Below are positions 10,932-63,065 of a DNA stretch of 64,000 bases, piece by piece; the first letter of the stretch is position 1; each line of letters opens with the position of its first letter. Source of the DNA: Planctomycetota bacterium (GTDB taxonomy: Bacteria; Planctomycetota; Phycisphaerae; FEN-1346); assembly GCA_030602705.1 (NCBI GenBank), contig JAUVZF010000007.1, positions 1 through 64,000 of the forward strand, read 5' to 3'. The translations under genes were made by a program, and so were the position numbers. The notes under the pieces are model-generated. The model did no database searches, was not told the origin of the DNA, and saw nothing but the letters and a program-made list of their open reading frames with translations.

Positions 10932-10935
10932 GTTT

Positions 10936-11016
10936 TGCGCGGTGGGTCTCCGTACCCACCGCGCAAGACGGCGAATATCCGCGGCGGGTACGGAGACCCG
11001 CCGCGCACCAAGTTTA
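10936..11016. repeat. Pair of palindromic repeats, family GCGCGG(T/C)GGGTCTCCG
   Basis: Two head-to-head copies of the same unit: one reads GCGCGGTGGGTCTCCGTACC, and the second, 30 bp on, is GCGGCGGGTACGGAGACCCG. Related units occur at 25745-25820 and 51697-51733. The units are GC-rich imperfect palindromes found only between genes or at gene breaks, like REP sequences. Confidence 0.7.
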
Positions 11017-11048: not shown

Positions 11049-11179
11049 GATATCCCACACCCGGAGGGTGGTCCTCCGGTCCCGCGACAGGCGCGAGCGG
11101 GATGAGTCGGGCCCTCGGGTCGGGCGCGCCGAAACCTGGGTCACGGGCGCACCCGAACTCGAGGGCCCCGTGGGATATC
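11049..11179 (+). promoter_or_regulatory. Multi-stem structured element directly upstream of mraY
   Basis: A perfect 10-bp outer stem (GATATCCCAC 11049-11058 with GTGGGATATC 11170-11179) closes three hairpins. The first is 11061-11079 (7-bp stem, 5-nt loop). The second is 11081-11101 (5-bp stem). The third is a long arm at 11109-11168 with a 9-bp perfect base (GGGCCCTCG with CGAGGGCCC) and about 13 further pairs broken by one bulge and one mismatch. The mraY ribosome binding site GGAG (11182-11185) starts 3 nt after the closing stem and the ATG is at 11194. It could be an RNA leader controlling mraY or a complex palindromic repeat. The pairing itself is read directly from the sequence. Confidence 0.55.
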
Positions 11180-11193
11180 ATGGAGTCAGATAG

Positions 11194-12324
11194 ATGTTTT
11201 ACCAGTCGTTATTCTACTTCCAGGAGTTCCTCCAGGAGGTCGGCCTCTGGCGGTACGCCAACGTGTTCCGCTACCAGACGTTCCGCATGATGTTCGCCAT
11301 CGTGACGAGTTTCTTCCTCCTGATGGCGCTGGCGCCGGCGGTGATACGCATCCTGAAGTACCTGAAGGTGCGGGGCGGGACGGACTTCGGCAACAAGACG
11401 ATCGACCAGATTTACGCCTCGCGTGCCTCGACGCCGACGATGGGCGGCGTCCTGATCCTGTCGGCGGTGCTGGTCTCGACGATCCTGTGGGCCGACATCT
11501 TCAACTTCCACGTCTTCCTGGGGCTTCTGACCGTCGTCTGGCTCGGTCTGCTCGGCGGCGTGGACGATTACATGAAACTCGTCAAGAAGAGCCGGTCGGG
11601 CCTCCGGATGTGGGAGAAACTGCTCTTCCAGATCGGCCTGGCGTTTCTGCTGGCGTTCTTCCTTTACCAGATGCGCGACTCGATCCGGCTGCCGGAGGAC
11701 GGCACGGGCATCGCCCTGAACCTGCCCTTCTACAAGTTCCCGATACCCCTGCCGCTCTGGATCTTTGCGGTGGTGTGCGTTCTGGTGGTGGCGGGGACGA
11801 GCAACGCGGTCAACCTGACCGACGGCATGGACGGGTTGGCCGTGGGCAGCATGGTGCCGCCGACCGTCGTGTTTCTGATCATCAGTTACATCGCCGGGCG
11901 GGTCGATTATTCGGCGTATCTGTATGTGCCGTATGTGTCGGGCGTCGGCGAACTGTCGGTCTTCTGCGGGGCGGTGCTGGGCGCGTGCCTGGGGTTCCTC
12001 TGGTACAACTGTTCGCCGGCCCAGGTGTTCATGGGCGACACGGGCAGTCTGGCCCTCGGCGGAGCCATCGGATACGTCGCGATGGCGACGCGGCAGGAGG
12101 TGATGCTGCTCGTGGCGGGGGGGCTGTTCGTCATGGAGGCGATGAGCGTCATCCTCCAGATCGGCTTCTTCAAGGCGACGGGCGGGCGGCGAATCTTTCG
12201 GATGTCGCCCATCCACCACCATTTCCAGTTGGGAGGATGGACCGAAACGCAGACCGTCGTCCGGTTCTGGCTTCTCGGCGCCATGTTTGCCGCCCTGGCC
12301 CTGGCGACGCTGAAACTGAGATGA
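11194..12324 (+). CDS. mraY: Phospho-N-acetylmuramoyl-pentapeptide transferase MraY
   Basis: Integral membrane enzyme that transfers phospho-MurNAc-pentapeptide to undecaprenyl phosphate, making lipid I. The 376-aa length and about ten hydrophobic helices match the family. Diagnostic blocks: S-T-P-T-M-G-G after helix 1, G-x-V-D-D-Y-M-K (catalytic Asp pair region), S-N-A-V-N-L-T-D-G-M-D-G-L, F-M-G-D-T-G-S-L-A-L-G-G, and the terminal M-S-P-I-H-H-H-F-Q-L-G-G-W. The ATG follows GGAG by 8 nt, right after the structured element. In most bacteria murD would come next. Here it is replaced by a repeat and ftsW. Confidence 0.96.
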   Translation: MFYQSLFYFQEFLQEVGLWRYANVFRYQTFRMMFAIVTSFFLLMALAPAVIRILKYLKVRGGTDFGNKTIDQIYASRASTPTMGGVLILSAVLVSTILWADIFNFHVFLGLLTVVWLGLLGGVDDYMKLVKKSRSGLRMWEKLLFQIGLAFLLAFFLYQMRDSIRLPEDGTGIALNLPFYKFPIPLPLWIFAVVCVLVVAGTSNAVNLTDGMDGLAVGSMVPPTVVFLIISYIAGRVDYSAYLYVPYVSGVGELSVFCGAVLGACLGFLWYNCSPAQVFMGDTGSLALGGAIGYVAMATRQEVMLLVAGGLFVMEAMSVILQIGFFKATGGRRIFRMSPIHHHFQLGGWTETQTVVRFWLLGAMFAALALATLKLR

Positions 12325-12360
12325 CACAGCCGGCCGCCGACATCGTCGGACGGGCCATCC

Positions 12361-12466
12361 GTTGGCGCCGGCGCCGGCCAGGATGCGCCGGGGATAAACC
12401 CCGGCGCTACGGCCAAGGTTGTAGCGCCGGGCTTTATGCCCGGCGGCCGTTGGGGCCGGCGCGGTT
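12361..12466. repeat. Mosaic palindromic repeat (two hairpin modules) between mraY and ftsW
   Basis: Two adjacent hairpins: module A GCGCCGGGGATAAACCCCGG and module B GCGCCGGGCTTTATGCCCGG, joined by TACGGCCAAGG and TTGTA. The same modules occur at 46935-47030 on the other strand but in the opposite order, and a degenerate module A is at about 24340. This A-B/B-A shuffling resembles BIME elements built from REP units. The element occupies the slot where murD is normally found. Confidence 0.75.
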
Positions 12467-23946: not shown

Positions 23947-24104
23947 GGGGGCTCCTTGCTCTGCCCGGCCCGCGAAAAACGACCGCGAAACCCGACACAA
24001 CGAAGCGTAGCAGAGCAGGCGCCCGCCGACAAGCATTTTGGACCTGCCGACGGAGCCGCCAGGGTGGCACGGCCACGCGCAGCGTGACCGTGTGCTGCTC
24101 GTCG

Positions 24105-24340
24105 CGATGCGACTCACGGCCGCGTCTTCGCCGCTGCCGTGCCACGCTCGTGTAGGCGACTCACGGCCGCGTCTTCGCCGCTGCCGTGCCACGCTCGTGT
24201 AGGCGACTCACGGCCGCGTCTTCGCCGCTGCCGTGCCACCCTCCTGTAGGCGGCCCACGGCCGCGTCTTCGCCGCTGCCGTGCCACCCTCGTGTAGGCGA
24301 CTCACGGCCTCCGTACGGATGCCGTGCCACCCTCCTTGAC
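24105..24340. repeat. 47-bp tandem repeat, four to five copies
   Basis: The unit begins GACTCACGGCCGCGTCTTCG and continues GCCGCTGCCGTGCCAC then GCTCGTGTAGGC, 47 bp in all. The first copies (from 24111) are nearly identical; later copies show point changes and the last is truncated with a different centre. It starts about 165 bp upstream of the pyrophosphorylase start codon and ends about 70 bp before the prepilin promoter. No gene is visible in it. Confidence 0.8.
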
Positions 24341-24408
24341 CGGCGCGGGGGATAAACCCGCGCCGGCGGCATCCGGCAAAATCTTGGGATAATAGTGGTG
24401 CGTTTTGT

Positions 24409-45851: not shown

Positions 45852-45945
45852 GCGTAGGCCGGGACGTGCCGGGCGGCACGGTCGCGCCGGAGCGCGGCCG
45901 CGCTCGGGGCGGCGGACCAGGCCTCCGAGTCGGGCGCGGCCTACG
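45852..45945. repeat. Palindromic multi-hairpin repeat between nagB and the DUF4954 gene
   Basis: Outer arms GCGTAGGCCG (from 45853) and CGCGGCCTACG (to about 45945), with an inner perfect hairpin GTGCC-GGGC-GGCAC and a GC-rich centre. Its CGAGTCGGGCGCGGCCTACG end recalls the arm of the structured element before mraY. The right arm provides the stop codon of nagB. Confidence 0.55.
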
Positions 45946-46934: not shown

Positions 46935-47030
46935 CTGCGGCTTGGCCGTAGCGCCGGGGTTTATCCCCGGCGCATCCTGGCCGGCGCCGCCGCCAACGGC
47001 CGCCGGGCATAAAGCCCGGCGCTACAACCG
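46935..47030. repeat. Mosaic palindromic repeat, modules in reverse order to the 12.4-kb copy
   Basis: Module A hairpin GCGCCGGGGTTTATCCCCGG at 46950-46972, a linker ATCCTGGCCGGCGCC, then module B hairpin GCCGGGCATAAAGCCCGGCG at about 47003-47024. Compared with 12361-12466 the strand is inverted and the order of A and B is swapped. It sits between nagB and bioD, where the remaining ~370 bp show no gene. Confidence 0.75.
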
Positions 47031-59761: not shown

Positions 59762-59902
59762 CATTACACGTCAGTGAAGTGTTACGACAACGCAAACGGC
59801 TGTGGTTGGCCTGCGAATCGTATTATTCAGCGGAAAACTGTCTCAGAATGGTTCTGAGGCCCGTGAACGGTTACGAAAAAGCAAACTCAAAGGTGTAGAG
59901 AC

Positions 59903-61357
59903 ATGAAGACAACGCTGTTCGTTCTTATTGCGATCTTCGGCTTCGCCTTGCCGGCCAATGCACTGGATCTGCAGGCGATCACCTCGAAGCCCGCCGCTCA
60001 CAACCCGCAGTTCGACAACAAGGAGGCCTGGCCGAACCTGGTCGGCGACGAGTATTTCCTGAAGCAGAAGTGGGAGAAGAAGCGACTTTTGATCTGGAAC
60101 ATTCACGGCTCAGCCGAAAAGGTCGGAGGCAGACGCGGCGGACTGGATGGCCGCAATCCGGCAAACTGGATCAACGCTGCGACGGGGCAGCCCGCCAAAT
60201 CGATTCCCGATATGGATACGGACATTATCCTGCCGGACTCCGACACGCCATACACGGTTAATTTCTACGGTCCGAAAGTTTCCTATTGGCGGCACGTTAC
60301 CATTGGCCGCAATGCCAAGATCCTCACGGGTGGTCACCGCGATAATAGTATTCAGATTTTCGGGAATGTCTGGGTTCGCGCTACAGGCGAAATCTCCACT
60401 TACGGATCGATGCATTTCATTGGCGACCGTGACACGTTCCTTCGACAGGACTGGCCGGAAGACGGCATGCTGAAAAAAATGCACGACGAGAGACTTGTTG
60501 CGCCCTACGATCCGAAGGCGAAGAACCCCTGGACGGAAGACGGCAGAGGTGGGCGCTCCATCACAGTGTATATGACACACGCGAAGGCGCCGGAAAAGTC
60601 AACCGAGGTGATCGGATACGTGCGCGCAGCAGACGAAGTCGGAATCAAATCGGGTACATTTATTGTTGGTCGTGACAGTCGATTCGTCAGCATGGGGCCG
60701 GCAGCGGTGTCGGTCAATAAGGGTGCGAAGGTTGTCCTGATGGACGGTTCGCAGTGTTCACACGGACAGAATCAGTTTGTTAACAGAGATTGGGGCGTTG
60801 CTGACGGCGCTCAGGTTACCGGTGGAACGCCGGACAGACCGCTGCGGCGTGACGCTTACTTTGGCGTCGGATACCGCAACTGGATGAACCTGCCTGTTCC
60901 AGAGTTGGAGAATAGCAAAAAAAATCCGGAGCAGCAAACGGGAGTGAAGCTTTACTATGGTTACAGCGGATACAACGCTCAGATTAGAGGTGATCTGATT
61001 GGTTACCCCGCGCCGGGAAGCGATGCACGTCTGGTGGTCTGTTGGCAGCGAATCTCCGCCGGCGGCGCTGGAAGTTGGGGGCGGGGGGACGAAGCATTCA
61101 AGAAGGTGTTCCCCAAGATCGTGCCGAAAATCGGGGTTTGGATCGGTGGCGCTTCGAGGCTTGCGAATGTCCGCTTTGACGATCTACATCGTGGCGGAAT
61201 CGTTGTGCCCAGTGCGGATGTCTTCAACTTCAAGAGATGGAGGAACGTCACCTTGGGCGAAGGTTGCCTCAGCAAGGACCCGAGGGAACTTATCCGCGAG
61301 ATCAACCCCAAAAAAGGGCAACGACAGACACCGGATAAGAAGTACACGACGATGTAA
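59903..61357 (+). CDS. Secreted protein of unknown function, paralogue 1
   Basis: 484 aa with a signal peptide (M-K-T-T-L-F-V-L-I-A-I-F-G-F-A-L-P-A-N-A). The rest is beta-rich: N-W-I-N-A-A-T-G-Q-P, I-P-D-M-D-T-D-I-I-L-P-D-S-D, W-R-H-V-T-I-G-R-N-A, F-G-N-V-W-V-R-A-T-G, L-R-Q-D-W-P-E-D-G-M-L-K-K-M-H, G-T-F-I-V-G-R-D-S-R-F and G-G-T-P-D-R-P-L-R-R-D. Repeated V-x-(I/V)-G-x-x-A/G patterns suggest a right-handed beta-helix, perhaps related to G8-type carbohydrate-binding regions, but I recognise no family with certainty. The gene has a full paralogue 300 bp downstream. GC is lower than in the core window, pointing to transfer. Confidence 0.75.
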   Translation: MKTTLFVLIAIFGFALPANALDLQAITSKPAAHNPQFDNKEAWPNLVGDEYFLKQKWEKKRLLIWNIHGSAEKVGGRRGGLDGRNPANWINAATGQPAKSIPDMDTDIILPDSDTPYTVNFYGPKVSYWRHVTIGRNAKILTGGHRDNSIQIFGNVWVRATGEISTYGSMHFIGDRDTFLRQDWPEDGMLKKMHDERLVAPYDPKAKNPWTEDGRGGRSITVYMTHAKAPEKSTEVIGYVRAADEVGIKSGTFIVGRDSRFVSMGPAAVSVNKGAKVVLMDGSQCSHGQNQFVNRDWGVADGAQVTGGTPDRPLRRDAYFGVGYRNWMNLPVPELENSKKNPEQQTGVKLYYGYSGYNAQIRGDLIGYPAPGSDARLVVCWQRISAGGAGSWGRGDEAFKKVFPKIVPKIGVWIGGASRLANVRFDDLHRGGIVVPSADVFNFKRWRNVTLGEGCLSKDPRELIREINPKKGQRQTPDKKYTTM

Positions 61358-61456
61358 GCGGGACACTCGACACGTTTTTTCAGCACAGCGGCAAAAAGAA
61401 AGAAACAAAGACATAGAGTGATTTACGCCGTAACCGCCGCAAGCGGGCGCAGGAGA

Positions 61457-61489
61457 CTTCCGGCCGGGAAGCGGTTTCCCGGCCGGAAG
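61457..61489. repeat. Perfect 14-bp hairpin between the paralogues
   Basis: CTTCCGGCCGGGAA (61457-61470), 5-nt loop, TTCCCGGCCGGAAG (61476-61489). No T-run follows, so it is not a standard terminator. It may stabilise the transcript end or be a protein-binding site. Confidence 0.6.
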
Positions 61490-61522
61490 CAAACCACGTG
61501 CCAACAGAAAAGAGAGGCCATC

Positions 61523-61639
61523 ATGAACAGACCCCCACTCACCCCGGCCAGAGCAGCGCGGTTTCTGGAGTCCCGGGCACCGAGGCGAAAAAGCGTTTTC
61601 CTAGCACTTAGCACTAATCGTTCACACGCTGACCATTAA
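61523..61639 (+). CDS. Possible 38-codon peptide
   Basis: ATG 61523 with AGAGAGG upstream, ending 16 bp before the next gene. Arg/Ser-rich (R-A-A-R-F-L-E-S-R-A-P-R-R-K-S). Too short to judge; it may be an upstream reading frame without product. Confidence 0.2.
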   Translation: MNRPPLTPARAARFLESRAPRRKSVFLALSTNRSHADH

Positions 61640-61655
61640 CCACTGGAGAAGAAAA

Positions 61656-63065
61656 ATGAAGACAACATTGTTAGTTCTTGTAACGGTTTTCGGCATTGCC
61701 CTGCCCGCCAGCGCGCTGGACATCAAGGCGATTACCGCCAAGCCCACCGCCGACAACCCGCAGTACGACAACAAGGAGGCCTGGCCGATGCTCGTCGGCG
61801 ACGAGTACTTCCTGAAGGGAAAGTGGCCGAAGGCACGCCTACTGATCTGGGCGCATCCGGGCGAAAACCCCAGCCGTTCTAATCCGTTCGATCCGATGGA
61901 GCCGTCTAACTGGATTAACGCTGCGACCGGCAAACCGGCCCGCACGATTCCAGACATGGATACAGACGTTATTCTCCCGGAATCCGACAAAAAGTACAGA
62001 GTGTTCGTACGTGGGAATAAGATAGATCTCGCGTGCCGACACCTGACCGTCGGGCGCGGTGCCGAGTACCAACCTGCGGGCGGAAGGGCGATGTCCGTTT
62101 TTGGTAATATCTAGGTTCGTCCCAATGCAACTTTGCATATTTACAGAACGCTCCACATGGTCGGTAATAGCCACACCTTCATTCGACGCGACTGGCCCGA
62201 AGATGGCGTGCTGAAGAAGATGCACGACACGGGCGCTGCTGCACCGGCCGGCCCGGATGTTCATCCGCACAGGGACAATCCGTGGCGACATGGAGGAAAG
62301 TTTGGAGGACTCTGCCATTTCTCTACCCATGACAAGCCTGAGGGTTCTACCGAGATCATCGGCTTCGTCAGATTCAACGACGAATTCAACATAAGGTACG
62401 GCATGTTTATCGTCGGTCGCGACAGTCGTTTCCTTAGCGGATTTGCAGCAACGAAAGATATTCGTAAAGGTGCGAAGTTCGCGCTGATGAATGGCGCCAT
62501 GACTGGACATGTTATCAATTGCTTCGGACCGCATACCGTGGTTCATGAGGGTGGTTCGCTTACAGGCGGTCTGCCGGACCGACCGCTAAAGCGAGATGCT
62601 CGGGTAGGCCTCGGATACTCGAACTGGATGCGTGTCCCCTTCACTGGATATCGGAACACGCACTTCGGATGGAACGGACTCAGTGGCGTCCTGTCAGGAG
62701 AGGTAGTTGGCTACATCGCCCCGGACAGTGACGCACAGTTGATTATCGGCTGGCAGCGAAATGGTATATTAGGAGGACCACTGAAAGACGGCTTCGACGA
62801 GAAATACGCGGAACTTATACCCAAGATTACTGTTGGGGTAAACGAAGGCACCCAGATTGAAAATGTCCGATTCGAGGATCTCCATCGCGGTGGACTTATC
62901 CTGCCCGACCGAGAAGCTTTCAAAAAGTGGAAGAACGTCACGTTCGGCGACGGTTGCCTCAGCAAGAACCCGGGCGAACTTCTCCGCGAGTTTAAAGGCA
63001 CTGTCGGCCGTGGTCGACCGAGCCTGAAAGAACTGCCCGTGGTAGAGAAGTACATCACGATGTAG
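61656..63065 (+). pseudogene. Paralogue 2 of the secreted protein, interrupted by one in-frame TAG
   Basis: Signal peptide (M-K-T-T-L-L-V-L-V-T-V-F-G-I-A-L-P-A-S-A) and the same blocks as the gene at 59903 throughout: I-P-D-M-D-T-D-V-I-L-P-E-S-D, R-R-D-W-P-E-D-G-V-L-K-K-M-H, F-I-V-G-R-D-S-R-F, G-G-L-P-D-R-P-L-K-R-D, V-R-F-E-D-L-H-R-G-G. The frame is broken only by TAG at 62112-62114, exactly where paralogue 1 has the Trp codon TGG in F-G-N-V-W-V-R. Without that single G-to-A change the product would be 469 aa. GGAG precedes the ATG. It is either a very recent pseudogene or read through. The two halves (61656-62114 and 62133-63065) are otherwise intact. Confidence 0.8.

Follow-up and report, generated by a model that had tools for sequence, protein, structure and literature searches.

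A highly structured element that ends immediately before the ribosome binding site of mraY in a planctomycete raises the question of whether synthesis of MraY is controlled there by an RNA leader or whether the element is one more palindromic repeat. MraY catalyses the lipid I step, with which the membrane stage of peptidoglycan synthesis begins, and mraY is an essential cell-wall gene. The peptidoglycan of planctomycetes has long been disputed and, to our knowledge, little is known about its regulation. In the window analysed here, a stretch of 64,000 nt, mraY (11194-12324, + strand, ATG at 11194; PF00953, Glycos_transf_4, E 2.2e-33, and PF10555, MraY_sig1) belongs to a peptidoglycan cluster with the gene order PBP-murE-murF-mraY-ftsW-murG-murC-murB. 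A reading of the sequence alone had proposed that the element is a structured leader tied to mraY and had offered a complex REP-like element as the alternative.

The element (11049-11179, + strand) is a predicted four-way junction of 131 nt, in which a perfect 10-bp closing stem encloses three hairpins; both the fold and the coordinates of that reading, including the Shine-Dalgarno (SD) sequence just after the stem, were confirmed. All its parts lie on the + strand. The closing stem P1 pairs GATATCCCAC (11049-11058) with its perfect complement GTGGGATATC (11170-11179). It encloses hairpin P2 (11061-11079) with the loop GUGGU at 11068-11072, hairpin P3 (11080-11102) with GGCGCG at 11090-11095 in its loop, the unpaired junction strand J3/4 (11103-11108), and the long arm P4 (11109-11168), which consists of a basal helix of 11-12 bp, a variable upper stem and an apical loop with the motif AACCUGGGUCA (11133-11143). 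The SD sequence GGAG (11182-11185, + strand) starts on the third base past P1. The minimum free energy of the junction predicted by RNAfold, -89.1 kcal/mol, compares with a mean of -67.2 +/- 4.1 for shuffled sequences (z = -5.38), and none of 200 shuffles was as low. Both DNA strands of the element fold about equally well, and for palindromic DNA folding energy alone is no proof of a role as RNA.

A DNA search of 61 related genomes found the element directly upstream of mraY in three of them (G002, G004 and G005), and G003 also carries it there. With the source genome (G000) these carriers represent five genera of one GTDB family; in the sixth genome of the family (G001) the contig begins at codon 82 of mraY, which places it outside the leader comparison. 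The element is absent from both genomes of the neighbouring family (G006 and G007). The MraY orthologues of G002-G005 are 77-83% identical, and the identity between genera is 65-85% for the element, higher than the 57-69% at third codon positions of mraY. Each of the five sequences taken alone is predicted to fold into the four-way junction. The four orthologues all fold better than their own shuffles (z from -2.6 to -6.4), and the upper stem of P4 differs in sequence among them, yet it folds in all five.

RNAalifold returned the same four-helix fold from the alignment of the five sequences (142 columns). Compensatory changes on both sides were found in 7 of the 31 consensus pairs, with 98.7% of cells paired, and all four helices have at least one. 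P1 has two compensatory pairs (UA/CG and AU/GC), and its eight consensus pairs are all kept in the five sequences; P2 has two and P3 one, both with 100% of cells paired; and the basal helix of P4 has two, together with one G-C to G-U change and 96.6% of cells paired. The covariation score, which comes from only five sequences whose relatedness is not fully controlled, and in which most varying pairs change in one or two sequences, was 0.213 against 0.106 +/- 0.019 after shuffling, and none of 500 shuffles reached it. It was also above that of every control in which pairing partners were slid, where 29-57% of cells were paired. The count of further pair types was not above that of shuffles (301/500), and many helix positions are invariant and consequently uninformative for structure.

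Conservation of sequence, as opposed to pairing, is found mainly in the apical loops. The P2 loop is GUGGU in four genera and GCGGU in G003 (consensus GYGGU), GGCGCG in the P3 loop is invariant in all five sequences, and so is CUGGGUCA, part of the P4 apical-loop motif, although it is predicted to be largely unpaired. The SD sequence is likewise invariant in the five. Junction strands vary freely, with 0% invariant columns in J1/2 and 11% in J3/4. That five genera keep the place and the shape of the element despite changes in its letters suggests that it is probably an undescribed RNA controlling MraY production. Judged from sequence comparison, the reading that we favour on balance is a conserved cis-acting leader RNA of mraY, restricted to one family, which would act within the peptidoglycan operon on mraY translation through a factor that reads the loops. 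To the fuller proposal, that one planctomycete family controls MraY translation apart from the operon by means of an undescribed leader RNA whose three apical loops are read by a new RNA-binding factor or ligand, we would give an even chance.

According to this proposal, the element would be transcribed as part of the peptidoglycan-gene transcript, and the junction may present the loops GYGGU, GGCGCG and CUGGGUCA to a putative trans-acting factor, for which a protein or a ribosomal component seems more likely than a small molecule. Binding of such a factor at a rigid platform, with the end of P1 about 0-8 nt before the SD sequence, would govern the access of ribosomes to mraY, and MraY output could thereby be set apart from that of the upstream mur genes. 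The SD sequence lies outside the junction in every orthologue. Its forced pairing with upstream parts costs about 7-22 kcal/mol in the five orthologues, and the 3' strand of P2 alone serves as a partner in all of them, at a high cost. This cost disfavours a classic SD-sequestering switch: the fold appears too stable for a spontaneous switch that hides the SD sequence, and control would probably be achieved by occlusion or recruitment at a fixed platform.

These observations also bear on the possibility that the junction is a metabolite riboswitch, binding a small molecule such as a peptidoglycan precursor and gating ribosome access at the SD sequence. Such a riboswitch might look like this element, in which several helices meet just ahead of an SD sequence in a biosynthetic operon, residues in the loops are conserved, and a very stable P1 adjoins the SD sequence. 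However, the conserved residues are mainly in the apical loops, and the barely conserved junction strands are unlike those of most junction-binding aptamers. Furthermore, no expression platform was found, neither an SD-hiding fold of comparable energy nor an intrinsic terminator after the element. We therefore regard a riboswitch as unlikely.

An element located between two cistrons might instead be a site of mRNA cleavage or a barrier to decay, giving the mraY-ftsW-murG part of the transcript a half-life of its own. Its extreme stability would suit this function, for which no switch is needed. The search for sigma-70-like promoters around the element found none, and on the + strand the search for intrinsic terminators gave a single weak hairpin that lies in murF. 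The stop codon of murF is no more than about ten bases away from the element in G002 and G003, which leaves no space for a promoter between gene and element. A role in processing or stability leaves unexplained, however, both the near-invariant loops and the constant spacing, with the P1 anchor 139-142 nt from the ATG in all five genomes, and we consider it rather unlikely. The same spacing argues against a small RNA that is cut out of the operon transcript and acts in trans, its place beside mraY being accidental. The compact, closed fold of 131 nt with conserved loops would fit such an RNA, but the element is always found right before the mraY SD sequence. In G000, G004 and G005, about 120-240 nt with palindromes separate murF from the element, and in the five genomes palindromic insertions were found neither within the element nor, in comparable form, between it and mraY. 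Insertions only on the murF side indicate that the element keeps company with mraY and not with murF, and a small RNA of this kind seems very unlikely.

A mobile palindromic repeat, REP-like or of another kind, could be expected to lie before mraY by chance in a genome rich in REP-like palindromes, one pair of which lies directly upstream of the element at 10935-11007. This explanation does not agree with the copy number. The source genome (3.9 Mb) has one match to the element, the rest being chance fragments, and the covariance model gave one credible match in each carrier genome; all five copies are immediately upstream of mraY and in the same orientation. In the window, the element scored 131 bits, a value that is high by construction because the element is in the training set, and everything else scored at most 14 bits. 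Beyond the family, no credible copy was found with the model among 298 genomes at class level and 392 at phylum level, in scans with stricter filters that could lose distant relatives, and its search of mraY neighbourhoods in other families of the class and in some other phyla found nothing. With the clear covariation, these results refute a current repeat family as the explanation, and we consider an origin as a mobile repeat of any kind highly improbable; the REP-like alternative thus fails for want of copies at unrelated sites, whereas the proposed tie to mraY is upheld by the restriction to mraY leaders, the compensatory changes and the single copy per genome found when the suggested check, a covariance model run across relatives, was carried out. 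A remnant of coding sequence or a short leader peptide is scarcely credible: although three of the sequences have GC-rich frames that are mostly open, in G002 and G003 the equivalent frame is broken by stops, orthologues differ by frame-shifting indels, and the changes follow base pairing.

Weaker matches to the model were examined and rejected. Two of them lie inside genes, named by eye from their translations as response-regulator-like (L128) and ROK-family-like (L130); a third (L129) precedes an ORF that by eye is prepilin-peptidase-like and is without the CUGGGUCA loop, and a fourth (L047, 18 bits) is without the loop motifs. None of the 15 matches from a motif scan of IMG/VR was supported by the covariance model. 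No regulon beyond mraY was seen in these searches, and no mraY leader RNA or riboswitch was found in the open-access literature.

Several other repeats are present in the window. The palindromes at 10935-11007 are a REP-like pair, GCGGTGGGTCTCCGTACCCACCGC and its near inverse, with matches in both orientations in the source genome. A palindrome cluster between mraY and ftsW (12359-12462) recurs in inverted order at 46941-47029, with 96-98% complementarity. A tandem array at 24062-24343 has about five to six copies of a 47-nt unit with CACGGC/GCCGTG palindromic parts. The multi-hairpin palindrome at 45852-45945, which had been likened to the element, is a separate structure closed by GTAGGCCG/CGGCCTAC; it differs in sequence, the likeness being superficial, and elsewhere in the genome it has short partial matches only. 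Finally, two diverged direct copies at 59892-61989, in blocks of 206 nt and 88 nt with 78% identity and a spacing of about 1750, suggest a tandem gene duplication.

A conserved RNA located exactly at the mraY ribosome binding site would point to control of the lipid I step at the RNA level. The element is compact and can be tested with reporters, and it adds a candidate RNA family without a meaningful match in Rfam, where a scan of the region at E values up to 10 gave nothing but chance matches below threshold, of the eukaryotic miRNA type and others.

Among known systems, the REP/BIME-like repeats of the same genome (10935-11007) are likewise intergenic GC-rich palindromes in the murF-mraY spacer, but they have 66 matches genome-wide against the single copy of the element. 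mraW is a gene of the cell-wall and division (dcw) cluster, and the element shares with the mraW RNA motif the character of a candidate cis-regulatory RNA at a dcw-type gene. That motif (RF01746) was reported as a candidate cis-regulatory RNA for Actinomycetales (PMC2864571). It differs from the element in its bacterial group and in its gene, and RF01746 gave no match at E values up to 10. The T-box (RF00230) gave no Rfam match within the same limit either, and was rejected. AGGGUGGUCC in P2 superficially resembles AGGGUGGNACC, which we take to be the T-box sequence, but G003 has GCGGU, without the U of UGG, and mraY is not known as a usual T-box target. Closest in its presumed mode of working, as far as general knowledge of such leaders allows the comparison, would be the autoregulatory leaders of the ribosomal-protein type. 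Although the element precedes a membrane transferase gene and matches no Rfam leader family, it would resemble them as a stable leader beside the SD sequence with conserved loop residues.
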